Part shown: positions 12,518 through 30,069 of the stretch, one piece after another | How positions within the stretch are numbered: position 1 is the first letter of the stretch | Layout: each line of letters begins with the position of its first letter | DNA from: an uncultured Pirellula sp. | GTDB lineage: Bacteria; Planctomycetota; Planctomycetia; Pirellulales; Pirellulaceae | Direction of reading: 5' to 3' | DNA: 46,509 nucleotides | NCBI GenBank assembly: GCA_903892355.1 | Contig: CAITIE010000140.1 | Span: 1 to 46,509, forward strand | Notes under the pieces: generated by a model | The model's database searches: none | Seen by the model: only the letters and a program-made list of their open reading frames with translations | Told to the model about the DNA's origin: nothing | Translations under genes and position numbers: made by a program

Positions 12518-13234
12518 TCAACGCCCGCGGTGACTTTCGATGTGCTGTTTGAGTTCTGCGACCGCTTTGGTAGTGCGTCTGCTACGGAGCGCGTCCACGA
12601 TCCGCTGATGGCTAGCCACAGCCGTTTCCCACTCCGCTTTTTTGACGCTATCCCGGAACTTCTGGAAGAAGACTTGAAGCATTTCCCCAAACGCGATCAT
12701 GGGGGCCAACCCGCTCGCTTCGAGGAGTGCGCGATGGAACTGGATATCCAGATCGATCTTGGTTTGGAGGTCTTTGGCTGTTTTCAATCGATCGACCAAC
12801 ATTTGCAGCGTATCGATCCAGTCCGGATAGTCCGTGCAGTGCTTGATCACGTGAGGGATGATCCCGGTTTCGACGATGACGCGAGAGTCGATCAATTCCT
12901 CCGGATCGACTTGGTGGAGCGACGCGTGGAATCCTAGGTTTTGCGTCATCCTCTGCCAGTCGAGTTCGCCAACGATCAGCCCGACCCCGGTCTTCGAATG
13001 AACGATGCCGAGGAACTCCAGGGCTTTGGTGGCTTCTCGCAAACTGAGTCGGCTGACACCGAACTTTTTGGCCAGTTCGGATTCGGTGGGAAGGCGATCG
13101 CCGGGTTGCAACCGCTCGGATACGATAAGTTCCCGGATCTGTTCTGCGACCTGGTCCCGGATGAGGGGGCGTGTGACCGTCGCGAGCGATTCGCCGCGGG
13201 TCGTTTTGGAAACTCTCTTTTTTGTACTGGTCAC
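12518..13234 (-). CDS. GntR-family transcriptional regulator (FadR/FCD subfamily)
   Basis: A 238-residue regulator if started at GTG 13234, which has AGAAGGGG seven bases upstream. A TTG at 13273 would add 13 residues and is less likely. The N-terminal winged helix-turn-helix is clear (GDRLPTESELAKKFGVSR, then LREATKALE). The C-terminal FCD domain shows likely metal/ligand positions in DIQFHRALLEAS and ASHQRI. Members of this subfamily normally repress adjacent catabolic operons and are released by a small organic acid or sugar acid. It is divergent from the 2-hydroxyacid dehydrogenase gene across 107 bp, so it is the likely local repressor of the island at 13342-27250, and its inducer is probably a pathway intermediate. 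Confidence 0.92.
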   Translation of the reverse strand: MTSTKKRVSKTTRGESLATVTRPLIRDQVAEQIRELIVSERLQPGDRLPTESELAKKFGVSRLSLREATKALEFLGIVHSKTGVGLIVGELDWQRMTQNLGFHASLHQVDPEELIDSRVIVETGIIPHVIKHCTDYPDWIDTLQMLVDRLKTAKDLQTKIDLDIQFHRALLEASGLAPMIAFGEMLQVFFQKFRDSVKKAEWETAVASHQRIVDALRSRRTTKAVAELKQHIESHRGR

Positions 13235-13261
13235 TTGCGGCCCCTTCTCTCGATTCGTTAG

Positions 13262-13274
13262 ATTATCTGACAAT
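13262..13274. promoter_or_regulatory. Candidate GntR operator palindrome
   Basis: ATTATCTGACAAT is a 13-bp imperfect palindrome (five of six pairs match about a central T) in the middle of the divergent intergenic region 13235-13341. Its size and AT-rich half-sites suit an FCD-type GntR operator, and its position would let one site control both directions. This is inference from symmetry and location only. Confidence 0.3.
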
Positions 13275-13341
13275 CGGACCTCAGGGTCAATGGTTTGGTC
13301 TCCTCTCTCTTGTTCGCGAAATCCATCAGGAGTACGCCGGC

Positions 13342-14313
13342 ATGCCGACAGTCGCTATCACAGACTACACCTTTCCTAATCTAGATATCGAGCGATCGAT
13401 TTTGGAGCCGCTCGGAATCGAGATCGTTCACGGGCAATGCAAGACACCGGAACTATTGATTCCCTTGGTAGAGAACGCCGACGCGGTGATCACGCAGTTT
13501 GCGCCGGTGAACGCTGTTGTCATCGAAGCGATGAAACGATCTAAGGTAATCGTGCGCTATGGAATCGGGGTGGATAATGTCGATTTGCAAGCTGCCCAAT
13601 CGCGAGGGATTCCGGTGTGCAATATACCCGACTACTGCATCGATGAAGTCGCTGATCATACGTTGGCGTTTATTTTGGCGACGACCCGTCAGGTGGTACC
13701 CAACTGCTTACACATCCGAGAAGGGAAATGGGGACTGGCCTCCGATTTGACCCAGATGCGCACGATGAAGGACCAGACCGTGGGGGTTGTTGGATTCGGT
13801 AGGATCGGTCGCGAGGTTGTTGCGCGCCTCAAGGCCTTCAAAACGCGTGTCTTGGTTTTCGATCCGGTGGTGGATGCAGCGACGATCCAGGAGTACGGGT
13901 GCGAAGGGGTGAATCTCGCGCGATTGCTCGCTGAAAGCGACATCGTGACGTTGCATTGCCCATCGACGGCCCAAACGAAAAAATTGCTTCGTGCGGAAAC
14001 GATCTCTGGGATGAAGCCGGGGGCGATTGTCATCAATCTTGCTCGAGGGGATTTGATTGACACCGCATCCATGGTCGACGCGTTGAGCAGCGGAAAATGG
14101 AGCGCGGCGGCGATTGATGTCTGCGATCCGGAGCCTATCCCTGCCGACAGTTTGCTGCGATCCCTTCCCAACGTAATATCGGCATCGCATATCGCGTCCG
14201 CCAGTGTTCGAGCGGTGCGTAAACTTCGCGAGACGGCTGCCATGCATGCTGCCGCTGCGCTGACGAATCAACCGCTGCAGCACATTGTCAACGGTGTTCC
14301 TTCGCCGGTCTGA
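13342..14313 (+). CDS. D-isomer-specific 2-hydroxyacid dehydrogenase (NAD-dependent, SerA/CtBP-like)
   Basis: A 323-residue protein with the two-domain fold of D-2-hydroxyacid dehydrogenases. It has the dinucleotide motif VGFGRIG (150-156) and the catalytic set Arg235 (NLARG), Glu264 (DPEP) and His283 (SASHIASAS). Ile-Gly-Val-Asp (GIGVDNV, 75-80) is the substrate-loop signature. The start at ATG 13342 has CAGGAG upstream; the open frame extends 40 codons further but overlaps the regulatory region. It should interconvert a D-2-hydroxyacid and a 2-oxoacid. It is the first gene of the island and is divergent from the GntR regulator. A second 2-hydroxyacid dehydrogenase of an unrelated fold lies two genes downstream. 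Confidence 0.92.
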   Translation: MPTVAITDYTFPNLDIERSILEPLGIEIVHGQCKTPELLIPLVENADAVITQFAPVNAVVIEAMKRSKVIVRYGIGVDNVDLQAAQSRGIPVCNIPDYCIDEVADHTLAFILATTRQVVPNCLHIREGKWGLASDLTQMRTMKDQTVGVVGFGRIGREVVARLKAFKTRVLVFDPVVDAATIQEYGCEGVNLARLLAESDIVTLHCPSTAQTKKLLRAETISGMKPGAIVINLARGDLIDTASMVDALSSGKWSAAAIDVCDPEPIPADSLLRSLPNVISASHIASASVRAVRKLRETAAMHAAAALTNQPLQHIVNGVPSPV

Positions 14314-14343
14314 TTCTGATTCTGTTTCTGGTTCTATTTCTGA
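14311..14343 (+). repeat. TTCTGN hexanucleotide repeat starting at a stop codon
   Basis: From the TGA stop of the hydroxyacid dehydrogenase (14311-14313) the sequence continues as alternating TTC and TGN/TAT triplets (TGATTCTGATTCTGTTTCTG and onward), with in-frame TGA again at 14317 and 14341. It lies in the 80-bp gap before the DapA-type gene. Confidence 0.8.
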
Positions 14344-14393
14344 GAGTGGTTCCAGCCACTGAACAAGGGGTTGTATTCCCAGGAGAATTGTAA

Positions 14394-15326
14394 GTGCCAA
14401 AGCCATTGTTTCATGGGGTATGTGCGTCATCGATCACGCCATTTCACGAAGACGGCTCGCTCTTTTTGGAGCGGTTGGGACCGCATTTGGATTGGTTGAT
14501 CTCCGAGCGTGTCGATGCGATATCTCCGCTGGGTAGTTCCGGGGAATTCGTGGCCATGGAGTGTGAGGATCGGAAGCGTGTGCTCGCGGCTGCGTTGGAA
14601 AAGATCGCTGGCCGCGTGCATGTTGTTGCCGGGACACATGATTACTCGACGCGCCGTACGATCGATCTTTCGAAGTTTGCCGAGTCGCATGGCGCTGATT
14701 CCTTGCTGATCGTTCCGCCCTATTACATGGCTCCGACCCCGGGTCAGGTCATGGACCATTTTCGTCGTATCGCCGAAGCGGTTTCAATCCCGATCGTTCT
14801 CTATCACAACATTCCACTTACCTCCGTGGATTTGAGGACGGAGCATCTGTTGAAGCTGTATGAAGAGAAGGCGATCGGCGGGGTGAAGATGTCGAACCCG
14901 GAGCCCGATCGGATCTGTGAGTTGTTGCAAGCAACTGATGGCAAGTTCTTCACCTATGCCGGAATCGATACGGTGGCTTTCGAAGGGCTCTGTCACGGGG
15001 CGCATGGTTGGATCTCTGGGATCCCGAGCACGGTTCCTGGGGCGGCAAAAGATCTCTATCTTGCGATCGCGGTTGAAAAGGATCTGGATCGTGCTCGATT
15101 GCTTTGGAGGAAATTGGCGCCACTGATGAGGCTGCAGTTCCAAGCGTATCACTCGCGAGGGGAAGGGGCTCATTGGTTTTCGACCATGAAAGCGGCCCTC
15201 AACATGATCGGTCCTCCTGTCGGGAATCCGGAACCACCGATCCGGCCGCTACCTGATTCGATTCGCCCAGTGCTGGCGAAGATGTTGCGAGATCTCGGTT
15301 ATCAGGTGAACGACTCCGCTGTGTGA
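14394..15326 (+). CDS. Dihydrodipicolinate synthase (DapA) family aldolase/lyase
   Basis: A 310-residue TIM-barrel protein of the DapA/N-acetylneuraminate lyase superfamily. The start is GTG, preceded by AGGAGA about eight bases upstream. The Schiff-base lysine is Lys165 (GGVKMSN), the catalytic Tyr is Tyr137 (IVLYHNIP), and the phosphate/carboxylate loop reads GSSGEF (47-52) in place of the canonical GTTGE. The family forms or breaks C-C bonds, or dehydrates sugar acids, with pyruvate or another 2-oxoacid bound as a Schiff base. The setting in a catabolic island, not a lysine operon, argues for a 2-keto-3-deoxy-acid aldolase or dehydratase. The exact substrate is unknown. The gene ends just before an imperfect 21-bp duplication. 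Confidence 0.9.
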   Translation: MPKPLFHGVCASSITPFHEDGSLFLERLGPHLDWLISERVDAISPLGSSGEFVAMECEDRKRVLAAALEKIAGRVHVVAGTHDYSTRRTIDLSKFAESHGADSLLIVPPYYMAPTPGQVMDHFRRIAEAVSIPIVLYHNIPLTSVDLRTEHLLKLYEEKAIGGVKMSNPEPDRICELLQATDGKFFTYAGIDTVAFEGLCHGAHGWISGIPSTVPGAAKDLYLAIAVEKDLDRARLLWRKLAPLMRLQFQAYHSRGEGAHWFSTMKAALNMIGPPVGNPEPPIRPLPDSIRPVLAKMLRDLGYQVNDSAV

Positions 15327-15362
15327 TGGTATGAGAAAGCCGCGTGAGGGAATGAGAAAGAG
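15321..15362 (+). repeat. Imperfect 21-bp direct repeat at a stop codon
   Basis: GTGTGATGGTATGAGAAAGC (15321 onward) is followed by the related GCGTGAGGGAATGAGAAAGA (15342 onward), period 21. Each unit contains TGA at the same place; the first is the stop of the DapA-type gene. The second copy leads into the ribosome binding site (AGGATCG) of the next gene. Confidence 0.7.
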
Positions 15363-15370
15363 GATCGACG

Positions 15371-16438
15371 ATGGTCAGTGGATTGCGAATCCGATTTGAG
15401 GAGCTTCATCAATTCGTCGTCGACGCTCTGGTTTCGACCGGGATGTCGGCAGAGCACGCGCAGTGGAGCGCGGACACATTGGCGACCACCGATGCGATGG
15501 GGGTCTTTACCCACGGTACAAAGCTTTTGATCGGTTATTTGAAGAAGTTGAAGGCTGGGGGATACCGGCCGACCGCCGTTCCAACCGTCGAGCGTCAAGG
15601 ACCTGCTTGGGGGATTGTCGATGGCCAATCGGCTCTTGGGATGGTCGGCTGCATCACTTCGATGCAGCTCGCGATCGACAAGGCTAAGCAGTGCGGGATC
15701 GCTTATGTGGGGCTTAAGAACACCGGTCACGTTGGGGCGATTGGATACTATGCCTCGCTCGCCGCACGACAAGGCTTGATCGCTATGGTCTCGGGGAATG
15801 ACATCCCATCGGTCGCGGCACCTGGATCCAGGAACGCTGTCTTAGGAAGCAACCCGATCGCCTATGGAATTCCCGTGGCAGGGGGAGACCCGATCATGCT
15901 CGACATGGCGACCGCTGCGACAGCTGGCGGGAAAGTCTACGCTGCAGTGCAGCGCGGGGAACCGATCCCATCGACGTGGTTGATCGGCCCGGATGGCAAG
16001 CCTACCAGCGATGGTGGGCTGTATCCTGCGAGCGCTTCGCTCGCTCCAATGGCAGGTCATAAGGGGTATGGGATTGGGCTCTGGTGCGAAATTCTTTCTG
16101 CGGTTTTGCCAGGGGGGAATATGACTTGGCAAGTTGGCAGTTGGCTCTTTGACGACCCCTCGTTACCCTCTCGTCATTCAGCATATTTCATGGCGATCGA
16201 TGTTTCTGTCATCACCGATCGGGCTCGATTCGATGCACAGCTTCGCGCGCTGATCGATGAAATCCACGCGACTCCCACTGCCGACGATGTCGATCGCGTT
16301 TTGGTTCCCGGCGAGCGGGAATGGGAGCGCTACCACGCCTCGAAAAAGGACGGGATCCAATTGCCGAGCGACGTGGTTGAAAAGTTGCATTTGGCATCCG
16401 AAATCACCGGCATTGTTCCAAACTGGTTGAGGAAATAG
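15371..16438 (+). CDS. Ldh2/malate-lactate dehydrogenase-family NAD(P)-dependent oxidoreductase
   Basis: A 355-residue member of the malate/L-lactate/L-sulfolactate dehydrogenase family (Ldh2, YiaK-ComC type), unrelated to classical MDH/LDH. Visible family signatures are FTHGTKLL (catalytic His), NTGHVGAIGYYA, GSNPIAYGIP and GHKGYG. ATG 15371 has AGGATCG upstream, and the gene starts 45 bp after the DapA-type stop. Members reduce 2-oxoacids, diketo acids or cyclic imino acids, usually to the L-hydroxyacid or amino acid. Together with the D-specific enzyme at 13342 it could invert the configuration of a 2-hydroxyacid through the shared 2-oxoacid. An imine reductase role is the main alternative, but no amino-acid genes are near. 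Confidence 0.91.
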   Translation: MVSGLRIRFEELHQFVVDALVSTGMSAEHAQWSADTLATTDAMGVFTHGTKLLIGYLKKLKAGGYRPTAVPTVERQGPAWGIVDGQSALGMVGCITSMQLAIDKAKQCGIAYVGLKNTGHVGAIGYYASLAARQGLIAMVSGNDIPSVAAPGSRNAVLGSNPIAYGIPVAGGDPIMLDMATAATAGGKVYAAVQRGEPIPSTWLIGPDGKPTSDGGLYPASASLAPMAGHKGYGIGLWCEILSAVLPGGNMTWQVGSWLFDDPSLPSRHSAYFMAIDVSVITDRARFDAQLRALIDEIHATPTADDVDRVLVPGEREWERYHASKKDGIQLPSDVVEKLHLASEITGIVPNWLRK

Positions 16439-16523
16439 ATCTGCGCGTTATCGCTCGTTGCGATCCATCATTAAAACACTTGTTATCAACTTAAAACGAA
16501 ATCAACACAGGAAGTTTTATTTC

Positions 16524-17333
16524 ATGAAAATCATTCGTTATCAAGATTCTCGCGGGGCGGTTCATTTTGGATCGTTGCAACCCGACGGCAAAGCACTTCG
16601 TATCGATGGGAACATTTTTGGGGATTCAACAGTCACCAACGAAGTTGCGGACGTCGCAAAAACGTTGGCCCCGATCGAGCCTCGAGACATCATGTGCATC
16701 GGGCTGAATTATCGAAAGCATGCGGCGGAGGGTGGCCAAGCCATTCCGGAGTTTCCTGTTCTGTTCATGAAGAATAGCGGGACTCTCCAGAATCCAGGGG
16801 ACCCGATCGTGCTCCCGAAAAAGCTGGCGAGCAATTCGGTCGATTACGAATGCGAGTTGGCGGTGGTGATCGGAAAGCCGTGTTACAACGTTCCCAAAGA
16901 GCGAGCGTTGGAATACGTATTGGGTTACACCTGTGCCAACGATGTCAGCGCTCGCGATTGGCAAATGAAGTACGGTGGTAGCCAATGGTGTCGCGGCAAA
17001 ACGTTTGCAACGTTTTGCCCGCTCGGACCGGTGCTTGTTACCGCCGATGAGATCCCCAATCCCAATGAGTTGTCGATTCGAACGGTGCTCAACGGGCAAG
17101 TCATGCAGGATTGGAACACCAATGACATGATCTTTGATGTGCCTACTTTGATCGAGTTTCTCAGTGGTAGCACGCGATTGGCACCGGGAACGGTCATCTT
17201 GACCGGAACGCCGCACGGAGTTGGGGGAGCGAGAAAGCCTCCCGTATTTTTGCAGCATGGTGATACGGTCACCATCGAGATCGAAAAAATTGGTTCACTC
17301 ACCAATCCAGTGATCGGTGAGCCCATCGCGTGA
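16524..17333 (+). CDS. Fumarylacetoacetate hydrolase (FAH) family protein
   Basis: A 269-residue enzyme of the FAH superfamily. ATG 16524 with AGGAAG nine bases upstream is preferred over the earlier in-frame ATG 16458, whose extra 22 residues are not family-like. Metal ligands are Glu109, Glu111 and Asp140 (DYECELAVVIGK, CANDVSARD); GLNYRKHA (60-67) and the C-terminal LTGTPHGVG are family signatures. Relatives hydrolyse C-C bonds of acylpyruvates and 2,4-diketo-3-deoxy sugar acids, decarboxylate oxaloacetate, or hydrate dienoates. In a sugar-acid pathway the expected products would be pyruvate plus a hydroxyacid, which would suit the dehydrogenases and the 2-oxoacid dehydrogenase complex downstream. 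Confidence 0.92.
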   Translation: MKIIRYQDSRGAVHFGSLQPDGKALRIDGNIFGDSTVTNEVADVAKTLAPIEPRDIMCIGLNYRKHAAEGGQAIPEFPVLFMKNSGTLQNPGDPIVLPKKLASNSVDYECELAVVIGKPCYNVPKERALEYVLGYTCANDVSARDWQMKYGGSQWCRGKTFATFCPLGPVLVTADEIPNPNELSIRTVLNGQVMQDWNTNDMIFDVPTLIEFLSGSTRLAPGTVILTGTPHGVGGARKPPVFLQHGDTVTIEIEKIGSLTNPVIGEPIA

Positions 17334-17405
17334 TAGGTGATCGCAACGACTTAGTAGGTGGTTTGGTTGCGCGAGGCACGGTCCGTTTCGCGATGGAGAT
17401 GACGA

Positions 17406-18743
17406 GTGATTCATTTAGGTTCGAACCATTTCGCGATCGATATTGGGAGCAACTCCATCAAAGGAGGGGTGCTCGATGTCGCATCGGGCGAGGTCACGCA
17501 TGTTTGCGCGCGGCCATTCCCTGCTCCGATAAGTGATTTGCGAGCTGGCATGGTGGAAATCGATCCTACGGGGATCGTTGAAGCTGTCGATTCGATCGTC
17601 GAAGAGTTGACGGTCGAGATGGGTTCGCTGTGCCATGGATGGATCTGCGGTCAGATGGGCGGGGTGATCCTTGCCGACGATCGCGGTCGCGCTAAATCCA
17701 ATTACATATCTTGGCGCGACCAACGTTCACTCGCGCGTGGGCGCACTGGTCGCAGTACATTTGAACAAATGCAAGACGATTGGCCGGAACCGACCATGGC
17801 GAGCCTCGGTCGGGAGTTGCAACCGGGATCGATGTCGACGTTGCTTCACTGGCTCTCGGAGAATCGCAAACTCAATGACGGCGTCATGCCTCTTTCGATT
17901 TCGGATTTTGTGATCTCAAGTATTGCCCGACAACCTGGCCGGATGCACGAAACCCATGCGATTGGTTTGCTGGATCTTGAGAAAAACGACTGGCACTACG
18001 AAGCGTTTGAACGGGTCGGCTTGGGGGATTTGTGGTGGCCGGAGTTGATCCACGACACGTCGGAGATCGCGACATGGAAACGGGGGCACCGAACAATCTT
18101 GATCCACGGTTCGTACGGTGACCAGCAGAGCGCGTTACTCGGCGCTCGCTTAGCTCGCGAGGAATTGTCGATCAATATTTCGACAGGTTCGCAAGTCAGT
18201 ATGCTGGCCGATTCGTTTTGCAGTGGGCCGTATCAAACCCGAAAGTATTTCGGGAATCAGTGGCTGAATACAGTGACACATCTTCCTGCTGGACGATCGC
18301 TCAATGCATTGATGCACTTGCTGACGGAGTTGTCGGATGCTGAATCCGTAAAACTAGATCGGCCGTGGAAGACGGTTCAGGAAAAAATGGATTCTATCGT
18401 TGAAACCGATTTGAAAGCCAACATAGCGTACTTCGCAAGTCCGGTTGGAAAGTCGGGGACGCTGGAGAATATGACCACTGAAAATATATCGGTCGGCCAT
18501 CTGTTCCTTGCAGCGTGTGTTTCGATGGCCAACAACTACGAAGCAGCAGCAAAGCGACTTAGTTCACGTCAGGAGTGGAGTTCCATCGCGTTGTCTGGTG
18601 GATTGGCCCAATCGTTACCTCGCTTGGTCTCGTTGATTCAATCTCGTTTAAAAAAGCCGATTCGGGAGTCGATCGGTGAAGAGACGTTGCTGGGGATGCT
18701 GCAGCTCGCGCGGCAGCATTCGATCCAATCCTCTCCGCTTTAG
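17406..18743 (+). CDS. FGGY-family carbohydrate kinase
   Basis: A 445-residue ASKHA-fold kinase of the FGGY type. The start is GTG 17406 with GGAG seven bases upstream. The N-terminal phosphate-1 motif is FAIDIGSNSIKGGVLD, the substrate-contact region has SWRDQRS, and the second-domain adenosine motif is LSGGLAQSLP near the C-terminus. Overall it most resembles sedoheptulokinase-like members, but specificity in FGGY kinases cannot be fixed by eye; ketoses, polyols and sugar acids are all possible. It begins 72 bp after the FAH gene. Its presence implies a phosphorylated intermediate in the pathway, or a branch that feeds a sugar into central metabolism. Confidence 0.88.
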   Translation: MIHLGSNHFAIDIGSNSIKGGVLDVASGEVTHVCARPFPAPISDLRAGMVEIDPTGIVEAVDSIVEELTVEMGSLCHGWICGQMGGVILADDRGRAKSNYISWRDQRSLARGRTGRSTFEQMQDDWPEPTMASLGRELQPGSMSTLLHWLSENRKLNDGVMPLSISDFVISSIARQPGRMHETHAIGLLDLEKNDWHYEAFERVGLGDLWWPELIHDTSEIATWKRGHRTILIHGSYGDQQSALLGARLAREELSINISTGSQVSMLADSFCSGPYQTRKYFGNQWLNTVTHLPAGRSLNALMHLLTELSDAESVKLDRPWKTVQEKMDSIVETDLKANIAYFASPVGKSGTLENMTTENISVGHLFLAACVSMANNYEAAAKRLSSRQEWSSIALSGGLAQSLPRLVSLIQSRLKKPIRESIGEETLLGMLQLARQHSIQSSPL

Positions 18744-18810
18744 GGCGTGGTTACCAACTTGTGAATGAGACCCTTCTTGTTTCTCTCCAACTCGACCAAG
18801 GAATCATCCA

Positions 18811-20574
18811 ATGAATGCATCACACAGGTGTCGTCTGGCCGCCGGACTCGTGTCAGGGATCTGCTGGTTTCAAAGTGGCGGCAACTTAGATTGCCACGCT
18901 GAGGAGGCTTTGAATGCTCCTGAGTCAGCGAGAACAGTTGAGTCGGCTCGATTTATTGATCATTCCCTTTTGATATCGAGCGAGTACCCATGCAACTGGC
19001 CGACTTATCCATTTCCAAAGTTCCAGATCGTTCATCAGAACGGGATCGGGGCTGTTAGTCCTTATCATATCGACTCACTCTATGTCGATGGCAACACCGG
19101 TACACAGCTTGATACTCCGCCGCACAGTGTTGCCAGGCCAGAGCTCAAGCGGGAAAAGTCGGGGCCTTTGGGGTTGGCGTACACCGACAAGATCGAGCCG
19201 TGGCAGTTTGGTGGAGAAGCATGCGTTGTGGATGTGCGCGATTTGCTCGATCAAGCACCCAAGGGGGTAAGTCCTTTGGTGACACCGGCGTACTTGGAGA
19301 AGTTTGAGGCGGCCCATCGCAAGCTAAAGTTTGGGGATGTCGTATTGTTCCGAAGCGATTACTCCGACCGTTACTATCGACCATTGCCGGAAGGAAATCG
19401 TTTCATCAATGATGTGGTGGACAAAAAAGCGCCCGGTTATCCGGACCCGAATCCTGACACGATGGAATGGCTGGGGAAACGGGGTGTGCTGTCGCTGGGA
19501 ACCGACAGCGCCAGCATGGGACCGATGCCGGACCTTGCCGAGCCAACCCATTTTGCGGGTCTCAAGTATGGAATGATTTGGACCGAGGGAGCGACAGGAT
19601 TGGGGGCGTTACCCGATACCGGCGCGTTTTATTGCTTTTTAGGACCCAAGCATGAAGGTGGACCGTACGGCGAAGGCCGAGCTTTTTCGATCGTAGGTGG
19701 TTCATTGCCCGGGCGACTGATCGACGCATGCACCAACAAGCGAGCCATCGATCTATCACCCACCCTGACTCCGCGGTTTCCGATGACGAACCCTGGTCAA
19801 AGTACCGGCGAGCATCGTCAGGTCTATTTGAAGATCGATTTTCTCTACAGCGACTATCTCGATATGTGGCATCATGGCCACATGATGGACTCGATGGCCG
19901 GAACCCATTTGGTACCACCATCGTATGCGTTGCCACCCGAAGGAGTAACGCCAGCGTATTCTCCAGAAGTGCGCGTGTGGTTGGATGAATACGAGAAGAA
20001 GTATGGCAAGCGAGGGACGAGCAGTCGGACGACGGAAAGCGTACCGCTCGAGTGGACATGCGGCGATGTTCGCGTGATTGATGTGCGACCGTTGATGGGT
20101 TCGACCGATCGAGGTTCATGGCCTGCTTCTCCTGAAATCACCGTGGAGTGGATCAAAAAGTATGAAGCGAGCTCAGGAGGATTGAATGCCGGTGAAGTGG
20201 TACTGTTTCAATCGGGATACATCGATCGCTATTTGAAGATGGCTCCGGACACGCAAGGCAACTTTGGAGCTGGATTGTGGAGCGATGCTTACACTCGCAA
20301 AGGGGAGGGGTGGCCTGCGCTGGGCCCTCATACGGTGAAGTACCTCAGCCAGAAAGGAATCCGCTGCGTCGCGACCGATGCTCCGGATCTAGGTGGAGTG
20401 GATCCCAAGCGAGCGCTGATGACGTATTGGGCGTTAGGGAGCCATGATATGGTCGGTGTCGAATACTTGAGCAACTTGGATCGAATCCCAAAGAGTGGTG
20501 GTTACTTTTTGTTTGCTCCGCTAAAGATCCAGGACTGCCACGGTGGCCCGGGGCGAGCGATCGTGTTGTACTGA
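18811..20574 (+). CDS. Tandem cyclase-domain protein (KynB/cyclase family, two degenerate halves), possibly exported
   Basis: A 587-residue protein made of two homologous cyclase-family halves (about 45-300 and 310-587). Each half repeats FxDVxxLFRSGYxDRY-like, GVxSxxTDxxxxG and GAFYCFL/GGYFLFA elements. The family metal site HxGTHxDxPxH is degenerate in both: NTGTQLDTPPH at 95-105 in the first half and GTHLVPPSY at 364-372 in the second. Family members hydrolyse cyclic amides, formamides or lactones (kynurenine formamidase, isatin hydrolase). A weak hydrophobic N-terminus (8-22) may be a signal peptide. ATG 18811 has AAGGAA upstream. Within the island it could open a ring or lactone. If both sites are impaired, it may instead be a binding protein or use a composite site. 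Confidence 0.85.
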   Translation: MNASHRCRLAAGLVSGICWFQSGGNLDCHAEEALNAPESARTVESARFIDHSLLISSEYPCNWPTYPFPKFQIVHQNGIGAVSPYHIDSLYVDGNTGTQLDTPPHSVARPELKREKSGPLGLAYTDKIEPWQFGGEACVVDVRDLLDQAPKGVSPLVTPAYLEKFEAAHRKLKFGDVVLFRSDYSDRYYRPLPEGNRFINDVVDKKAPGYPDPNPDTMEWLGKRGVLSLGTDSASMGPMPDLAEPTHFAGLKYGMIWTEGATGLGALPDTGAFYCFLGPKHEGGPYGEGRAFSIVGGSLPGRLIDACTNKRAIDLSPTLTPRFPMTNPGQSTGEHRQVYLKIDFLYSDYLDMWHHGHMMDSMAGTHLVPPSYALPPEGVTPAYSPEVRVWLDEYEKKYGKRGTSSRTTESVPLEWTCGDVRVIDVRPLMGSTDRGSWPASPEITVEWIKKYEASSGGLNAGEVVLFQSGYIDRYLKMAPDTQGNFGAGLWSDAYTRKGEGWPALGPHTVKYLSQKGIRCVATDAPDLGGVDPKRALMTYWALGSHDMVGVEYLSNLDRIPKSGGYFLFAPLKIQDCHGGPGRAIVLY

Positions 20575-20660
20575 TCATGCGTAGTGTCGATCGAGAATGA
20601 GAGTTTGAGAGCGATGGATAATTGGGCAAGCAAGATGATCGAGGCATTGGAGGATCGCTT

Positions 20661-20765: not shown

Positions 20766-20811
20766 TTTGGGTCCGGATCGAGAAATTATTTTCGAGAGGA
20801 ATTTAGCGGCG

Positions 20812-22413
20812 ATGAATCATGATCCTCACGGCGAATCGTCGTCGAATCCCGAGTCGGTAGGAAATTCGATTCCGCCTTGGACGGCAGGAGAATTGCCGGT
20901 ACCGAAACCGTTGCGTTGGCGGAACTGGGCCAGTTTCATCGGGCCTGGGATCGTGATGATGGGGATCCAGATCGGGGGTGGTGAATGGCTATTGGGCCCC
21001 GCGGTTACTGCAAAGTATGGCGGCGGCTTAATGTGGATCGCGACGGTCGCGATCATCTTGCAAGTCTTCTACAACATGGAATGTGGACGGTACGCACTCT
21101 ATTGCGGGGAACCGGTCTTTACCGGCTTTATGCGTTGCAAACCGGGACCTGGATTTTGGGTTTCGGTGATGATGCTTTTGAATATTTCGGCATTGGTCCC
21201 AGGGTTATCTACGCACGGAGCTGCGATGATCGCATCGCTCTATTTAGACCGCCCTCCAACGCCTGATGACAAATGGTTGGTGGTTCCCCTCGCCTATGCA
21301 TGCCTTTTCGGCGTCGCATTTCCTGTCATCGCAGGTGGCAAGATCTACAACGTGCTGCAATTTGTGATGACAGCAAAAATCATCGTTGTGTTAGGTTTCT
21401 GTTTAGGATTGGGAGTGACATGCGTTAGTGCTGCGAACTGGTGGAATGTCGGAATTGGCTTTTTGCAATTTGGAAATGTGCCTGTTGCCGACGGCAATGG
21501 TGGCGAGGTGTTGCAAAATATTTTCACTCACCGATGGCAGACTGGTGAATGGCCGGTAATCTCAACGGCTAGCTTGATCGTGATCGGTGCGTTTGCAGGC
21601 TATGCCGGTGGTGGTGGGTTAGCCAATTCGACATACTCGAATTTCGTACGCGATAAAGGTTGGGGGATGGGGTCACAGGTTGGTGCGATCCCCAGCGCGG
21701 TTGGAGGAAGAAGCGTGACGCTCAGTCATGTTGGAAAAGTCTTTCCAGTCAACGAGTTAAACCTGGATCGATGGCGTGGGTGGTGGCGCTACATTACCAC
21801 CGATCAGATCCTTGTCTGGGCGCCGGGATGTTTTGTGGGAATGGCGCTACCGGCGTTGCTTTCGATGCAGTTTGCTGCATCGACCACAGTGACCAGCGAG
21901 CAAATGAGTGTCGCCCAATCGTTGGTAACCGCGGACGGAATTCGACACTACGGTTTTGGTCCAACGTTGTCAAAACTTCTATGGATAGTTGCTGTTTTGA
22001 CGGGATTGATGGTCATGCTTCCGAGCCAGATGTCGATCCTGGACGATTTCGCACGCCGTTGGACCGATGCGATCTGGAGCGCTAACCGACGCGTTCGCGA
22101 AGGGATGAAATCGGATCAGGTCAAGATGATTTACTACGCGATCTTAGCAACCTATTTGCTGTGGTCGTTCCTGTGCACATTCTTGTTCAGCAATGCTCCT
22201 AAATTGATGACGGATTTCATCGCAAACTTCAATAACCTCGCGATCGGCGTGACCGCTTTTCAGATCCTTTGGATCAACACTCGTTTGCTGCCGCGCGAGA
22301 TTCAGCCTCGGTGGTATCAACGGCTCGGATTGGCCTGCTGCGGGATCTTTTACATCGGACTAGCGGTCCTGGTATTCCAATTCAAGATTGTTCCGTATTT
22401 GTGGGGGAGTTGA
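20812..22413 (+). CDS. NRAMP-fold (SLC11-like) membrane transporter lacking the metal-binding motifs
   Basis: A 533-residue integral membrane protein with about 11 hydrophobic segments and the overall pattern of the NRAMP family (FIGPGIVMMG at the start of helix 1, a conserved helix 6, and LSKLLWIVAVLTGLMVMLPSQ). ATG 20812 follows GAGAGGA; the frame extends further upstream as TTG but without support. In true metal transporters helix 1 carries DPGN and helix 6 carries MPH. Here helix 1 reads GIQIGGGEW (51-59) and helix 6 reads AGYAGGGGLAN, so both metal-coordinating motifs are absent. Within the catabolic island it is more likely an importer of an organic substrate or a non-transition-metal cation. 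Family call good, cargo unknown. Confidence 0.85.
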   Translation: MNHDPHGESSSNPESVGNSIPPWTAGELPVPKPLRWRNWASFIGPGIVMMGIQIGGGEWLLGPAVTAKYGGGLMWIATVAIILQVFYNMECGRYALYCGEPVFTGFMRCKPGPGFWVSVMMLLNISALVPGLSTHGAAMIASLYLDRPPTPDDKWLVVPLAYACLFGVAFPVIAGGKIYNVLQFVMTAKIIVVLGFCLGLGVTCVSAANWWNVGIGFLQFGNVPVADGNGGEVLQNIFTHRWQTGEWPVISTASLIVIGAFAGYAGGGGLANSTYSNFVRDKGWGMGSQVGAIPSAVGGRSVTLSHVGKVFPVNELNLDRWRGWWRYITTDQILVWAPGCFVGMALPALLSMQFAASTTVTSEQMSVAQSLVTADGIRHYGFGPTLSKLLWIVAVLTGLMVMLPSQMSILDDFARRWTDAIWSANRRVREGMKSDQVKMIYYAILATYLLWSFLCTFLFSNAPKLMTDFIANFNNLAIGVTAFQILWINTRLLPREIQPRWYQRLGLACCGIFYIGLAVLVFQFKIVPYLWGS

Positions 22414-22471
22414 AATTGCGCGTGGAATCAAGCTTTGCCAAAGAAACGGCGAGCATGACATTGGTTCCGAA

Positions 22472-22650
22472 CATCATCGAGGATGGTTCGGAACAGCGAG
22501 TACGATTACGAGTACCGTCCGTGGGGCGGACTGAGTACGAAGAAGAGCGGAGCTTCGCGGCTGTTGGCTGCTTATCGTACTCGTACTCAGCGCAGCGGTA
22601 CTCGTACTCGACGGCTGTTACCGGCTGCTTTGGCTTTCTCGGAGTTTCGA
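22472..22650 (+). repeat. Dispersed GAGTAC/GTACTC palindromic element, copy 3
   Basis: A full-length copy: GAGTACGATTACGAGTAC, hairpin GTCCG-TGGG-CGGAC, TGAGTACGAAGAAGAGCGGA, GGCTGTTGGCTGCTTATC, then GTACTCGTACTC, AGCGCAGCG and GTACTCGTACTCGA, ending in GGCTGTTACCGGCTG. Left GAGTAC and right GTACTC arms are complementary and could form a long stem. It sits directly after the transporter stop, in the same orientation as copy 4. Confidence 0.88.
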
Positions 22651-22673
22651 GTCTCTCGGGCGAACCATCGATG

Positions 22674-22866
22674 GTGATCGAGGGTTCGAACATGGTCGAA
22701 GGATCGGAGGAGCAGCGAGTACGAGTACGAGTACCGTCCGCGAGGCGGACTGAGTACGAGGAAGAGCGGAGCTCATTGGCTGTTGGCTGCTTATCGTACT
22801 CGTACTCGTACTCAGCGGAGCGGTACTCGTACTCGATGGCTGTTCCCGGCTGTTTGGGCTTTTGGT
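22674..22866 (+). repeat. Dispersed GAGTAC/GTACTC palindromic element, copy 4
   Basis: The most regular copy: three GAGTAC units, hairpin GTCCGC-GAG-GCGGAC, TGAGTACGAGGAAGAGCGGA, GGCTGTTGGCTGCTTATC, three GTACTC units, AGCGGAGCG, two more GTACTC units and GGCTGTTCCCGGCTGTTT. Together with copy 3 it fills the 498-bp gap between the transporter and the SDR gene, which holds no protein gene I can support; the long open frame across it is an artefact of the repeats. Confidence 0.9.
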
Positions 22867-22911
22867 TTGTATTGACGTCGAACTTTTGTTCTCAAGAATA
22901 TCGATAACCCT

Positions 22912-23751
22912 ATGATCCATGAGATGTTTCAATTAAAAGGTCGTGTTGCCGTTGTCTCAGGTGCTGCCCAAGGGATGGGGCAAGCGTCCGCGTTGGCGCT
23001 GGCTAATGCCGGGGCATCGTTAGTCTTGGTCGATCGCAATTTAGAAGGGGCGGAAGCGACCGCGGAGCAGGCTCGTACAACCGGAGTGCGTACGATTTGT
23101 TCCAACACCGATGTTTCGGATCCCGATTCTATTAGAGAACTTTTCGCATTGGTCGATCGAGAGTTTGGCCGCGTCGACTTCCTAGGCAATATCGCAGGAG
23201 ATGGGGTTCTCTCTTCTCCGGAGAAGCTTGCGATCGAGGATCTTCAGCGGGTACTTCAGAATTTAGTCATCGGACGCTTTTGCATGTGCCAGGAAGCGGG
23301 TCGTCGGATGATTGCTCAAGGCCGTGGATCGATCATGAATATCGGGTCGTTGGCGAGTACGACCGCATTAGGAAGAGGGCATATTGCGTACAGCATGGCG
23401 ATGGGTTCCGTGGTTCAGATGACGCGGGAATTGAGTACCGAGTGGGCGTGTCGCGGGGTGCGGGTCAACGCAGTTCTCCCCGCCCAAGTCCTCAACCCGA
23501 GCCTTGAGGCTCGCATCGCTGCGGATCCTACTCTCGAGTCGCGATTCCTCAAAGGAATTCCCGCTGGGAGATTGGGGCAACCGAGAGACATTATGGGACT
23601 AGCGGTGCTTTTGGCTAGTGACGCGTCGGAGTGGATCACCGGAGCACTCATTCCGATGGATGGAGGGAATCTCGCCATGAACGCCGGTGGCACCCCAGGC
23701 CATGAGTCGCAACTTGTTCAATCATTCCGCGCTGAAACAGGAAAGAATTAA
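22912..23751 (+). CDS. Short-chain dehydrogenase/reductase family protein with catalytic Lys replaced by Met
   Basis: A 279-residue Rossmann protein of the classical SDR family. Visible are the cofactor motif SGAAQGMGQ (16-24), an Asp at the end of beta-2 (VLVDR, Asp41; suggesting NAD), GNIAG (92-96), Ser146 in NIGSLAS, Tyr160, and the C-terminal SEWITGALIPMDGG. The active-site YxxxK reads YSMAM: position 164 is Met (ATG 23401-23403) where Lys is expected. ATG 22912 is used; an internal ATG at 22924 is possible. It is followed 7 bp later by the E1 gene, so the two are surely co-transcribed. It may be a binding or structural paralogue or use altered chemistry; a sequencing error is possible. 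Confidence 0.9.
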   Translation: MIHEMFQLKGRVAVVSGAAQGMGQASALALANAGASLVLVDRNLEGAEATAEQARTTGVRTICSNTDVSDPDSIRELFALVDREFGRVDFLGNIAGDGVLSSPEKLAIEDLQRVLQNLVIGRFCMCQEAGRRMIAQGRGSIMNIGSLASTTALGRGHIAYSMAMGSVVQMTRELSTEWACRGVRVNAVLPAQVLNPSLEARIAADPTLESRFLKGIPAGRLGQPRDIMGLAVLLASDASEWITGALIPMDGGNLAMNAGGTPGHESQLVQSFRAETGKN

Positions 23752-23758
23752 CCCAAGA

Positions 23759-25765
23759 ATGACCGCTCAAAAAGAGATGATCGCACCGAAAGTGTCGTTG
23801 TCCACCGAACAAGTGCTCAGTTTGTATCGCACCATGCAAATCATCCGGCAAACGGAGGAAGAGCTTGCGCGTTGCCATCAAAAGGGATTGATCCACGGAG
23901 CGTGCCATACGTACGTTGGCCAAGAGGCGATCGCGACCGCGGTTTGTGCGCAGTTGACCCATCGTGACGCAATCTTCAGTACCCACCGAGGTCATGGCCA
24001 TGCCCTCGCGAAAGGACTTGAGCCAATCCAGCTCATCGCAGAACTTTTCGGACGCGAAGCGGGCTGTTCCCGAGGTCGTGGAGGGAGCATGCATTTGTTC
24101 TCGCCAGAGATCGGAATGATGGGGACCAGCGGTATTGTTGCTCCGTGCATTCTTCAAGCGTGCGGTGGAGGCTACAGCTCGAAGATTCTCAAGAATCAGA
24201 CGGTGGCGGTCGCGTTCTTTGGAGACGGTGCGGTCAACAACGGCGCGTTTCACGAAGGGCTCAATATGGCGAGCATCTGGAAACTGCCGGTCCTTTTTGT
24301 GTGCGAGAACAATCAGTACGCGACTGAGGTTCCGTTTGCGTACGCGAGCGGTAACCCGAGCGTTGGATCGCGTGGGTCGGCATATGGGATCCCAGGGTTC
24401 GAGCTCGATGGGAACGATGTGATCGGAATTTACGAAGTCGCCCATCAGGCGGTCGAACGGGCTCGGCGCGGCGAGGGACCGACGTTGATCGAGTGCAAAA
24501 CGTATCGGACTCGACCGCACGCCGAGGGGATGGGGGATTTCACGTACCGCACCCGAGAGGAGGTCGAAGAGTGGAAGCAGCGTTGTCCTATTGCGCGGTT
24601 GCGAAATCGCTATCCATCGATTGGACCGGAGCGATTCGATACGATCGATCAGGAAGTGAAGGAATTGGTTCGTCAAGCTCGAAGCGATGCAGAACAAAGC
24701 CCGGAGCCGAAGAGCGAAACGGCGACAACCCACATCTATTCCGTTCCTCGTACGATCCCGGATGATCGAAAGCCTCGGGGTGCTGCAAGCCGGGTGATCA
24801 CGTATGCGCAAGCTACCTTGGAAGCGCTTACGGAAGAGATGGCCGCAAACCCCAACATCTTCGTGATGGGTGAAGGGATTGGCGTGCGAGGTGGTAACTT
24901 TGTGACGACCAAGGGGTTGTATGCGATCCATGGACCGGAACGGTTGTGCGATACACCGATCTGCGAGCGGGGTTTTGTGGGATTGTCCTGCGGCGCAGCG
25001 ATGACAGGGACGCGACCGGTGATCGATTTTATGTTTGCCGATTTCGTGCTCGATGGGCTGGGCGAAATCATCAATCAGATTGCCAAGATGCAGTACATGT
25101 CGAGCGGGCGTTTGAAGATGCCGGTTTTGTTGAGAGGTTGCATCGGGATAGGGCACTCGGCCGCAACGCATCACTCGGGGAGTTACTACGGGATGCTCGC
25201 CCAAGTGCCCGGATTACGTGTGGTGGTGCCATCGATGGCTTCGGATGCCAAGGGGCTGCTGAAGCATGCGTTGCGAAGTGATGATCCGGTTCTGTTCCTG
25301 GAGCATCGTGAGATTCTTCAAACCAAGGAGGCGGTTCCCGATGGAGAGTATGAAATTGAGTTTGGACGAGCTCGCATTGTTCGAGTTGGAGGTTCGGTGA
25401 CCGTGGTCGCGTTGGCCAGGATGGTCCATTTGACCCTTTCGGTTTGCGATGCGTTGCAGAAGGATGGTATCTCCGTCGAATTGATCGATCCTCGAACCAT
25501 CACTCCACTGGACACTGAAACGATCTTGGAATCGCTCAAGAAGACGGGACGGTTGTTGGTGGTGGATGAAGCTCCTGCGCATTGCGGTTTTAGCGCGGAG
25601 ATAGCGGCCACGATGGCGGATGTGGGCTTTGACGAGCTCGATGCTCCGATCCGACGTGTGACGGGTGCATTTTGCCCGACCCCGTATAGCCCATCGCTTG
25701 AGAAAGTCGTCGTGCCGACGGCTTCGTGCATTGAGCGATCTGTTCGTGAACTGGTGGAGGAATAA
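23759..25765 (+). CDS. 2-oxoacid/acetoin-type dehydrogenase E1 component, alpha and beta fused
   Basis: A 668-residue thiamine-diphosphate enzyme in which E1 alpha (about 15-320) and E1 beta (about 343-668) are one polypeptide joined by a Pro/Glu-rich linker. The ThDP site is GDGAVNNG (155-162) followed by ENNQYA (183-188). Other E1-alpha signatures are STHRGHGH (74-81) and RGGSMHLF; E1 beta shows GEGIGVRGGNF and the C-terminal DEAPAHCGF. The N-terminal half most resembles acetoin dehydrogenase or branched/pyruvate E1. ATG 23759 is used because the upstream extension overlaps the SDR gene. It should decarboxylate a 2-oxoacid (or cleave acetoin) and pass the acyl group to the E2 encoded three bases downstream. 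Confidence 0.93.
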   Translation: MTAQKEMIAPKVSLSTEQVLSLYRTMQIIRQTEEELARCHQKGLIHGACHTYVGQEAIATAVCAQLTHRDAIFSTHRGHGHALAKGLEPIQLIAELFGREAGCSRGRGGSMHLFSPEIGMMGTSGIVAPCILQACGGGYSSKILKNQTVAVAFFGDGAVNNGAFHEGLNMASIWKLPVLFVCENNQYATEVPFAYASGNPSVGSRGSAYGIPGFELDGNDVIGIYEVAHQAVERARRGEGPTLIECKTYRTRPHAEGMGDFTYRTREEVEEWKQRCPIARLRNRYPSIGPERFDTIDQEVKELVRQARSDAEQSPEPKSETATTHIYSVPRTIPDDRKPRGAASRVITYAQATLEALTEEMAANPNIFVMGEGIGVRGGNFVTTKGLYAIHGPERLCDTPICERGFVGLSCGAAMTGTRPVIDFMFADFVLDGLGEIINQIAKMQYMSSGRLKMPVLLRGCIGIGHSAATHHSGSYYGMLAQVPGLRVVVPSMASDAKGLLKHALRSDDPVLFLEHREILQTKEAVPDGEYEIEFGRARIVRVGGSVTVVALARMVHLTLSVCDALQKDGISVELIDPRTITPLDTETILESLKKTGRLLVVDEAPAHCGFSAEIAATMADVGFDELDAPIRRVTGAFCPTPYSPSLEKVVVPTASCIERSVRELVEE

Positions 25766-25768
25766 GCG

Positions 25769-27250
25769 ATGGCAGAAGAAATACGGTTCCCGCGTTTGGG
25801 ATGGTCGATGGAAGAAGGCCGGTTTGTAGGCTGGTTGCGGAAGAGTGGCGACACGATTCGCGAAGGAGAGCCGCTGTTCGAGATGGAGGGAGAGAAAGCT
25901 GTTCAGGAGATTGAGTCGGTGGGTTCGGGGATTCTGTTCATTCCACCTACGGCCCCGGAGCCAGATAGCGTCTTGGGAGTAGGAGCGGTGTTGGGGTATT
26001 TGTTAGCGCCAGGCGAAGTCCCTCCGGGTGAAGCGGGTGGTCCTATCGCAAGTGTGGGTGGGGCTAAAACAGATGGCAGCAATCATGATCGATCGCCGCA
26101 AGAGCAACTGCTTGCAGGTGGTTTGGGATTACCCGAGGAAGAATTGCCTCAGGATGACTCGGACACCAGTGAACAAGGAGTCGAAGGAACTTCGTCGCCG
26201 GGTGGGCCTGCTTCGCCATCGGTTCGTCGGCAGGCAAGGCAGTTGGGGGTGGATATTGCACGGGTGGTCGGCAGCGGTCGATCGGGTCGTGTGACGGCAG
26301 CGGATGTGGCGCGTCATTCTCGAAGTGAGGTGGATACAGCGATCCTCGAGATCGAGTCGGAGGAAATGGCTTCGCAGAGGGATGCTTCCACGGATACGAT
26401 GGATTCGGTACAGGGCAAGACTGCATCGCCGCGTGCCCGACGAGCCGCCAAGGCGTTGGGGATTGATTGGCGGGATGTACCCGGGAGCGGTCACAGCGGT
26501 CGCGTGCGGGAAGCGGACGTGGTGGGGGCTGTGCGAGGCCAATCGCCGAAACCGACCAGTTCGTCGTCATCGAGCAAGCGTTTTGGGCCGCGGCGCAAGG
26601 CGATTGCGGATCGATTGCGAGCGAGTCAGAGTGCGACGGTACCGGTGACGTTGCATACGGTTGCCGACGTGACAGGTTTGGTGGCTTATCGGGAGCAGCA
26701 GAAGGTCTTGCAGTCGAGTTATGTACCGGCGTACACCGATTTGATCGCGAAGTTGTTGGCGGTGGTATTGGATCGTCATCCGGCGATGGCCGTCCGTTGG
26801 AATGGGGATCATACCGATTTGGACGAGGTACCTCAGGATGCGTTCCACATTGGGATCGCGGTGGATACCCCGGATGGTTTATTGGTTCCGGTGGTTCGTT
26901 CGGTGGGATCGCGATCGATCGAAAAGGTAGTTGAGGAGTCGCGTCGCTTGATCGCGCGGGCGAGGGAGGGTCGATTGACGCGTGAGGAGATGAGTGGCGG
27001 GGTAATGACGATCACGAATTTGGGCGCTTATGGGATCGATGGTTTCACCCCGATCATCAATTTGCCCGAGATTGCGATCTTAGGATTGGGCGCGATCCGC
27101 CGCGAGCCGGTCTTTCGAGAGGGGGATCGGGTCGAGGCACGCGATCGCATGGTATTGAGTTTGACGTTCGATCACGCCGCCATCGACGGCGCCCCCGCCG
27201 CCGCGTTCTTAAAGGACATCGTCAACACCATCGAAGGCATGACGTTGTAG
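25769..27250 (+). CDS. Dihydrolipoamide acyltransferase (E2) with two peripheral subunit-binding domains
   Basis: A 493-residue E2. The lipoyl domain (1-80) has its lipoylation site at Lys43 in EGEKAVQE. Two peripheral subunit-binding domains follow: 148-181 (SPSVRRQARQLGVD...GSGRSGRVTAADV) and 219-252 (SPRARRAAKALGID...GSGHSGRVREADV). The catalytic acyltransferase domain spans about 268-493, with the active-site motif DHAAIDG (His469, Asp473, Gly474). Low-complexity Ser/Pro/Glu linkers separate the domains. Start and RBS (GGAGG) overlap the end of the E1 gene, showing tight coupling. The complex would yield acyl-CoA. No E3 (dihydrolipoamide dehydrogenase) gene is present in the window, so it must be shared from elsewhere. 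This is the last gene of the island. Confidence 0.94.
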   Translation: MAEEIRFPRLGWSMEEGRFVGWLRKSGDTIREGEPLFEMEGEKAVQEIESVGSGILFIPPTAPEPDSVLGVGAVLGYLLAPGEVPPGEAGGPIASVGGAKTDGSNHDRSPQEQLLAGGLGLPEEELPQDDSDTSEQGVEGTSSPGGPASPSVRRQARQLGVDIARVVGSGRSGRVTAADVARHSRSEVDTAILEIESEEMASQRDASTDTMDSVQGKTASPRARRAAKALGIDWRDVPGSGHSGRVREADVVGAVRGQSPKPTSSSSSSKRFGPRRKAIADRLRASQSATVPVTLHTVADVTGLVAYREQQKVLQSSYVPAYTDLIAKLLAVVLDRHPAMAVRWNGDHTDLDEVPQDAFHIGIAVDTPDGLLVPVVRSVGSRSIEKVVEESRRLIARAREGRLTREEMSGGVMTITNLGAYGIDGFTPIINLPEIAILGLGAIRREPVFREGDRVEARDRMVLSLTFDHAAIDGAPAAAFLKDIVNTIEGMTL

Positions 27251-29962: not shown

Positions 29963-30069
29963 GGCACAAGGTTATCTTCAGTTCGTAGTTGCTAAAAAGC
30001 CATCTTCGTTTTGCGACGAGTGTCGCTGTCGAGGGGATGGTTGCTGCCAGTGGCTAGGCTCTCGATCGT

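Follow-up and report, generated by a model that had tools for sequence, protein, structure and literature searches.

Do the genes between positions 12,518 and 27,250 of a planctomycete contig make up one pathway, and on what compound would it act? The question is raised by the window, the 46,509-nucleotide stretch at positions 1 to 46,509 of contig CAITIE010000140.1 from an uncultured Pirellula sp. (assembly GCA_903892355.1; 6.18 Mb, 158 contigs). In this island, a divergent FCD-type GntR regulator (R) faces ten co-directional genes, and hidden Markov model (HMM) scans bear out all eleven families, as well as the strands, given in an initial annotation of the DNA. The island is read here, with a probability of roughly 55% that covers the full scheme proposed below, as one catabolic operon under GntR/FCD control whose substrate is a small organic anion. 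It would be a sugar-acid-type operon, unusual in its transporter, its short-chain dehydrogenase/reductase (SDR) and a dedicated E1/E2 pair. The features are as follows.

12518..13273, minus strand: R, FCD-type GntR regulator (open reading frame; GntR 68.6 bits, FCD 60.2 bits)
13258..13278, no strand: operator-like odd palindrome, AGATTATCTGACAATCGGA at 13260-13278
13342..14313, plus strand: D-2-hydroxyacid dehydrogenase family (HADH; PF02826/PF00389, 2-Hacid_dh)
14394..15326, plus strand: DapA-type class I lyase/aldolase (PF00701, DHDPS, 166 bits)
15371..16438, plus strand: Ldh2-type L-2-hydroxyacid dehydrogenase (PF02615, Ldh_2, 349 bits)
16524..17333, plus strand: fumarylacetoacetate-hydrolase family (FAH), like diketo-3-deoxy acid hydrolases (PF01557, FAA_hydrolase, 259 bits)
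17406..18743, plus strand: divergent FGGY kinase (FGGY_N, 39 bits)
18811..20574, plus strand: double cyclase/isatin-hydrolase-fold protein (CYC; two PF04199 stretches)
20767..22413, plus strand: NRAMP-fold transporter without the canonical metal motifs (Nramp_1, 140 bits)
22414..22911, no strand: direct-repeat stretch between transporter and SDR (two 99-nucleotide and two 63-nucleotide repeats)
22912..23751, plus strand: SDR with YxxxM replacing YxxxK (YSMAM in the window)
23759..25765, plus strand: E1 alpha-beta fusion, 2-oxoacid/acetoin dehydrogenase (PF00676, PF02779, PF02780; pyruvate dehydrogenase E1 models)
25769..27250, plus strand: E2 with one lipoyl domain, two E3-binding stretches and an acyltransferase domain (PF00364, PF02817 twice, PF00198)

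Conservation of gene order and of an operator-like site

The initial annotation had staked the island on its gene order recurring in relatives, and the order does recur. A search for the double cyclase covered 297 genomes of the class, among them the genome of the window, and gave 75 carriers; 79 cyclase loci, that of the window included, were compared. Loci were called island-like where SDR and E1, or the NRAMP-fold transporter, or a permease of the major facilitator superfamily (MFS) lies on the strand of the cyclase. By this definition 36 of the 79 loci are island-like, and 30 of the 36 keep the canonical order of HADH, an epimerase-family protein (EPI), DapA, Ldh2, FAH, FGGY, CYC, transporter, SDR, E1 and E2, absent members being allowed. 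The exceptions include a displaced FAH (locus L064), FGGY (L048, L173 and L186) or CYC (L068) and an MFS-E1-E2-CYC fragment (L262); two loci added late together with L262 show the cyclase only. Family occurrence was counted in 35 CYC-anchored islands of the first 76 loci, with a floor of 200 bits for SDR, Ldh2, HADH, EPI, FAH, DapA and FGGY and with contig ends making the counts lower bounds: SDR is found in at least 30, E1 in 27, E2 and NRAMP in 25 each, HADH in 24 and Ldh2 in 17, followed by the rarer FAH (14), FGGY (9), EPI (8), MFS (7), DapA (3) and Mqo (2).

Even distant families of planctomycetes have the orthologues in this order. Median identities between window proteins and fetched orthologues are 77% for FAH, 75% for DapA (72-78% among the window, L035 and L071), 74% for SDR, 73% for E1, 71% for NRAMP, 69% for CYC, 67% for HADH, 64% for Ldh2, 54% for R (13 other orthologues in the first 40 fetched loci) and 48% for FGGY. 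Scanning species genomes with a transporter alignment gave 288 relatives, of which the best 80 were inspected. By title, these 80 come from three Verrucomicrobia/Verrucomicrobiales metagenome-assembled genomes (MAGs), one plain 'bacterium' and otherwise planctomycetes, including Pirellula, Schlesneria, Isosphaeraceae, Fuerstiella, Kuenenia-labelled MAGs and the isolate Aquisphaera insulae JC669; the closest named relative among them, 94% identical, lies on a Planctomycetota MAG contig (L074). The isolate carries HADH-FAH-NRAMP-SDR-E1-E2 on one contig (L087). Seventy loci have at least 1.5 kb downstream, and in 48 of them an SDR of the family begins no more than 1.2 kb from the transporter. The minimal sets that recur are NRAMP-SDR-E1-E2 and NRAMP-SDR, and there are also NRAMP-like genes with neither SDR nor E1-E2. 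Some minimal operons have a Gfo/Idh/MocA oxidoreductase gene downstream of E2 (L110, 11293-12387; L142, 8461-9615). Judged by this synteny, the genes are a conserved unit.

The gap between R and the operon holds a recurring site. Its core, TATCWGAYA, is present in 21 of 24 distinct R-operon gaps, within a wider consensus, TAGATTATCWGACAATCNGA, that forms an odd palindrome; the core was not found in the gaps of L072, L099 and L179, the last of which has a run of N. The 19-base pattern occurs once without mismatch in the window's genome (13260-13278) and at two other places with two mismatches, and the reversed-pattern control at one place with two mismatches. The operator search covered 30 island genomes of the 33 others then known: a perfect 16-base site is found in 16 of the 30, in 13 of these 16 at the island, and no genome of the 30 has a perfect match to the reversed pattern. 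Of five off-island sites read, that of G039 falls between R and Ldh2 at a place separate from the other island genes, and that of G201 is upstream of an R paralogue followed by a PSCyt-type gene; no clear regulon gene was seen at those of G024, G267 and G096. Off-island genes of the R family also stand before PSCyt-like genes, with an operator-like site upstream, in L257 (8589-13174) and L256 (8897-12498).

Since the order is kept and the operator-like site recurs in most gaps and only once without mismatch in the genome, the island is read as one regulated unit. The divergent regulator and conserved site are those of a GntR/FCD regulon, and one conserved regulon is, on these sequence patterns, very probable; the initial annotation had likewise seen a common unit facing one regulator, which the shared site suggests to be one regulon. 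R is predicted to bind the palindrome. The true start of R is probably further in than the listed TTG (13273), at a GTG near 13234 as judged by eye, because the TTG falls inside the operator-like site.

The NRAMP-fold transporter and its slot

The transporter is matched by Nramp_1 at 140 bits against a cut-off of 50, by NCBIfam only and under the family name of divalent metal transporter; it has no Pfam match at an E value of 0.001 and no match among PDB sequences by phmmer or by a 16-sequence profile. Its structure model is of moderate confidence (pLDDT 69.8, with residues 281-313 below 50), and Foldseek places it in the LeuT/Nramp fold, with an integrative YcsG model first, followed by MntH and NRMT. 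Canonical Nramp/SLC11 proteins carry the metal motifs DPGN in transmembrane segment 1 and MPH in transmembrane segment 6. Both are absent from all 16 aligned sequences of the family, and GPGIVMxGIQIGGGEWL and AGGGGLxNxTYSxFVRDKGWGMG are invariant in the same 16. By eye, four Nramp-like proteins show related motifs, (G/S)SGE and R(D/E)KGxGMG: those of Aureimonas, Halobellus and Haloarcula hispanica and the second of two Rubrobacter copies, the first of which has GSGE and lacks the other motif.

The slot that this protein occupies is exchangeable. Among the 36 island-like loci, NRAMP fills it in 25 and MFS in eight, never both, and three have neither. The only MFS typed (L035) is nearest to two models, scoring 332 bits on HpaX, the 4-hydroxyphenylacetate permease, and 296 bits on the D-galactonate transporter, both below cut-off. 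On the E1 tree the changes between NRAMP and MFS number three, or two without L060, whose MFS lies on the other strand; the well-supported branches force the same numbers, and a single change occurs in 0 of 200 bootstrap trees. Where the island has no transporter (three genomes), an NRAMP-like gene is present at another place in each genome. Seven MFS-island genomes were tested (the eighth, G058, stands outside this count): four have no NRAMP-like gene, in two there is a distant one at 146-152 bits, and the last has an island NRAMP at another locus. An alternative transporter in L045 and L169 was rejected, the upstream genes being Nuo/Mrp-type in L045, as is the one L169 gene scanned.

Neighbourhoods in other phyla, which are single examples, hint at hydroxyacids. 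In a Verrucomicrobia-labelled MAG the gene directly upstream of NRAMP-SDR encodes a nickel-pincer isomerase related to LarA (group 22), which scores 497 bits where the cut-off is 400. On a Rubrobacter plasmid two Nramp-like genes share their neighbourhood with lactate-utilisation genes, two LarA-type genes, two cyclases, UxaA and FadR/GntR. An L-lactate permease and an FAD/FeS dehydrogenase are close to the Nramp-like gene in both Halobellus and Haloarcula hispanica; in Haloarcula pelagica the neighbours of the Nramp-like gene are rhcF, an SDR, rhamnose mutarotase, a mannonate-dehydratase-family gene and an SMP-30 lactonase.

Because the family lacks the metal motifs, has invariant motifs of its own and is replaced in its slot elsewhere by an MFS permease, it is read as an importer of organic anions; transport of such anions is probable, with import as the presumed direction. 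A rival reading has the protein import Mn2+ or Mg2+ for a metal-dependent enzyme of the operon, for example the cyclase-fold protein or FAH. The match to MntH and NRMT and the family name agree with it, a manganese-dependent isatin hydrolase is among the fold relatives of the cyclase, and PMC10448178 reports YcsG as a Mn importer. However, the motif replacement holds in 16 of 16 sequences, MFS takes the slot in eight loci and never alongside NRAMP, and minimal operons retain the transporter without the cyclase, so that metal import is judged unlikely; a metal-supply pair of transporter and cyclase was rejected outright, as the cyclase is missing from the minimal operons. The matter reaches beyond this island, as organic-acid carriage by NRAMP-fold proteins is disputed between YcsG as a Mn importer (PMC10448178) and PxpT of C. 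glutamicum, an NRAMP-family protein required for growth on 5-oxoproline and described as its carrier (PMC13274462); an outgroup of PF01566 without Slc11 features is described in PMC9606685. A lineage free of metal motifs that swaps with an MFS permease in one operon slot makes this dispute directly testable.

Catalytic members and the candidate route

In the proposed scheme CYC, probably exported, would open or hydrolyse an external precursor (a lactone, lactam or ester), and the NRAMP-fold protein without a metal site, or elsewhere the MFS permease, would import the resulting hydroxy- or keto-carboxylate. HADH and Ldh2, which represent both stereochemical families and for which an Mqo/Lqo-type or epimerase-family dehydrogenase appears elsewhere, would make 2-oxo acids. 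A 2-keto-3-deoxy acid would be cleaved by a DapA-type retro-aldol reaction, or by 4-oxidation and FAH hydrolysis, to pyruvate and a hydroxyacid. The dedicated E1/E2, borrowing an E3, would make acetyl- (or acyl-) CoA, and R would release the palindrome on sensing the substrate or an intermediate. The compound taken up and oxidised to pyruvate and acetyl-CoA would most likely be a 2-hydroxy or 2-keto-3-deoxy acid. This scheme from hydroxyacid to acetyl-CoA, of which we infer the substrate and every catalytic step, is given even odds, and the ring opening, oxidation, C-C cleavage and acyl-CoA formation foreseen in the initial annotation are plausible. More tentatively, and at somewhat less than even odds, the NRAMP-fold branch (GGGEW and RDKGWGMG in place of the metal site) may import hydroxycarboxylates and feed an undescribed planctomycete route to acyl-CoA; the SDR, its active site rebuilt (YxxxM, or FxxxK in a second lineage), would there prepare the substrate of a dedicated fused-E1 complex. 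Searches of the open-licence PMC literature brought up no paper that treats the island or NRAMP-like carriers in the catabolism of planctomycetes.

The double cyclase has a model of pLDDT 81.7, whose best folds are isatin hydrolase and a Ruegeria cyclase-phosphotriesterase. Its domain 1 reads NTGTQxDxPxH where 5nmp has HTGTHxDxPxH; the G, T, Q, D, P and H of this motif are invariant in 23 of 23 sequences, and the N-terminus is signal-peptide-like by eye. Cyclase orthologues of 68-72% identity also stand off-island among other conserved genes (L036, L039, L041, L042 and L070).

The SDR has Met at the position of the catalytic Lys in 69 of 69 aligned sequences, where it aligns with the Lys of gluconate 5-dehydrogenase 1vl8; the YxxxK dyad is therefore absent from all 69, a count that omits 14 weaker matches (L060, L198, L191 and L108 with FxxxK, L124 with a split YSMAM copy, the rest unrelated SDRs or fragments). 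The NAD-binding glycine-rich motif and the following Asp are conserved. A second lineage (L060, L191, L198 and L108; rearranged relatives) has Phe at the catalytic Tyr and keeps the Lys. Three of these four loci also hold E1 and E2 (the L191 contig is short), and their E1s group together (support 89/81). As aligned, both SDR lineages near island-type E1/E2 have a broken YxxxK motif, and a strictly conserved SDR without the catalytic Lys is a separate mechanistic puzzle.

The R, E and H residues of HADH are conserved in an alignment of 46 sequences, as are the FAH catalytic residues in an alignment of 23; the expected catalytic residues of Ldh2, DapA and E2 are conserved as well. The expectation that several members would be atypical at key residues holds for three of the eleven proteins, namely the SDR (Lys to Met), the transporter (no DPGN or MPH) and the cyclase (domain 1), and fails for FAH, HADH, Ldh2, DapA and E2. 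FGGY matches in its N-terminal domain only, with no FGGY_C match in the HMM scan. In Sulfitobacter an SDR, an FAH and a 2-hydroxyacid dehydrogenase stand together.

FAH shares 50-52% identity, over 83-84% of its length, with a pair of haloarchaeal proteins whose annotation is 2,4-diketo-3-deoxy-L-rhamnonate hydrolase (rhcF), and the island may be compared with an L-rhamnonate/L-fuconate diketo-hydrolase pathway yielding pyruvate and L-lactate, in which Ldh2 or Mqo/Lqo would oxidise the lactate and E1/E2 the pyruvate. On NF053535 the three proteins are alike (208 bits for FAH, 224 and 229 for the two rhcF), all far below the equivalog cut-off of 500, so that the model does not discriminate. The Haloarcula pelagica cluster, with Nramp-like, rhcF and rhamnose genes, fits the pathway, as do Mqo-family enzymes, kin of L-lactate:quinone enzymes, in two islands without Ldh2 (L035 and L047). 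Against it, FAH is detected in just 14 of 35 islands, no rhamnose/fucose dehydrogenase, sugar lactonase or rhamnonate dehydratase is recognised in the island, HADH, CYC and FGGY are left unexplained, and the SDR is without its Lys; the pathway is considered improbable, to the same degree as metal import. The earlier verdict that no pathway could be named thus stands in that L-rhamnonate is not supported as the substrate, and gives way in that FAH resembles rhcF, one of which lies near Nramp-like and rhamnose genes. Dehydratase candidates occur elsewhere in the window's genome (MR_MLE, six matches, five above cut-off; UxaA-type, one match). Their neighbourhoods were discarded as a missing upper pathway, the only island-like matches beside them being a weak DapA (49.8 bits) and MFS (24 and 39 bits).

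E1 has its alpha and beta parts fused in one protein that matches pyruvate dehydrogenase E1 models, and E2 keeps the catalytic H and DG. The genome also has AceE with its own E2 on another contig, so that the island E1 is not its only pyruvate dehydrogenase E1, and a further E1/E2 scores 320/126 bits on the island models. Given AceE and its E2 elsewhere, the island E1/E2 looks dedicated, and a housekeeping pyruvate dehydrogenase was rejected. In L128 a pyridine nucleotide-disulphide oxidoreductase, probably an E3, lies inside the island between DapA and CYC (6735-8162). Genes for acetoin reductase and butanediol dehydrogenase are close to E1 relatives of 42% identity in Acinetobacter, and the 45% relatives in Pseudoroseomonas stand next to an E2 that carries an acetoin dehydrogenase annotation; these neighbours and the tightness of the SDR-E1-E2 core suit a route of the acetoin/2,3-butanediol type, in which the SDR would make an alpha-hydroxyketone for E1/E2 to cleave to acyl-CoA and aldehyde, the other genes being add-ons. 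Such a route is less likely still, since E1 matches pyruvate dehydrogenase models and GntR, hydroxyacid dehydrogenases, an anion permease and a Lys-less SDR are unexpected in it; no acetoin genes are recognised in the island.

Weighing the operon reading and comparison with known systems

That the genes are a loose neighbourhood of unrelated catabolic genes is very improbable, for although several members are optional and the cyclase often stands apart, the order is kept, the operator-like site is shared and the regulator is divergent.

Several observations nevertheless weigh against the operon for a small organic anion. FAH, DapA and FGGY are optional (14, 3 and 9 of 35 islands), and the minimal unit NRAMP-SDR(-E1-E2) is without C-C cleavage or hydroxyacid dehydrogenases. 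Island-like surroundings are missing from 43 of the 79 cyclase loci; the first 76 include 41 of these, of which only 10 have less than 2 kb of contig downstream of the cyclase, so that most of these cyclases do stand apart. A perfect operator match is missing from 14 of the 30 island genomes. No sugar-acid dehydratase is found in the island, the hydrolase role of CYC is uncertain with its degenerate metal motif, and the lost Lys undermines a plain dehydrogenase role of the SDR. For the transporter, the Aureimonas Nramp-like gene has no hydroxyacid context at its locus, and B. subtilis YcsG, of the NRAMP family, is argued to import Mn2+ (PMC10448178).

Start sites of HADH (13342), FAH (16524) and E1 (23759) agree with conserved N-termini in alignments of 46, 23 and 56 sequences. 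No gene is supported in the interval from transporter to SDR, which contains direct repeats: duplicated 99- and 63-nucleotide units at 22490-22862 are rich in GAGTAC/GTACTC, and an open reading frame at 22269-22907, mostly within this insert, has no family match in HMM scans. After the E2 gene, 27279-28516 carries repeat families (three copies of 140 nucleotides, two of 204 nucleotides at 97%, three of 42 nucleotides). DUF1501 and PSCyt1/DUF1549/DUF1553 genes follow on the other strand (28526-33291); they often flank islands and directly follow R in some loci. The pair was rejected as part of the island: it is found in 32 of 64 long loci with the island and in 13 of 43 long loci without it, the models derive from island members, and the genome has 72 DUF1501 matches; a link is unsupported.

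With the operon read as proposed, planctomycetes gain a regulon whose operator is predicted and whose candidate substrates are few, and island-type genes are carried by a cultured isolate, Aquisphaera insulae JC669.

Among described systems, the lower half of the proposed route resembles the 2,4-diketo-3-deoxy-acid hydrolase route (LraF/RhcF, L-rhamnonate type), which shares a clustered FAH-family hydrolase (50-52% to rhcF), an SDR and lactate-type dehydrogenases. By contrast, the island is without a recognised dehydratase, sugar lactonase or sugar dehydrogenase, its FAH is optional, and it adds HADH, the double cyclase, the FGGY kinase and a dedicated E1/E2. Acetoin and pyruvate dehydrogenase complexes likewise have E1 alpha and beta domains and a lipoyl E2 with catalytic H and DG, whereas in the island E1 alpha and beta are fused, E2 has two E3-binding stretches and the window's island has no E3. 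The island transporter shares, in its model, the LeuT-type fold of SLC11/MntH and NRMT, yet the metal-site motifs are absent and other invariant motifs present. PxpT/YcsG with 5-oxoprolinase (pxpTABC) also joins an NRAMP-family secondary transporter to a catabolic operon with a divergent GntR-type regulator (PMC13274462); the island has that same arrangement without pxpABC.

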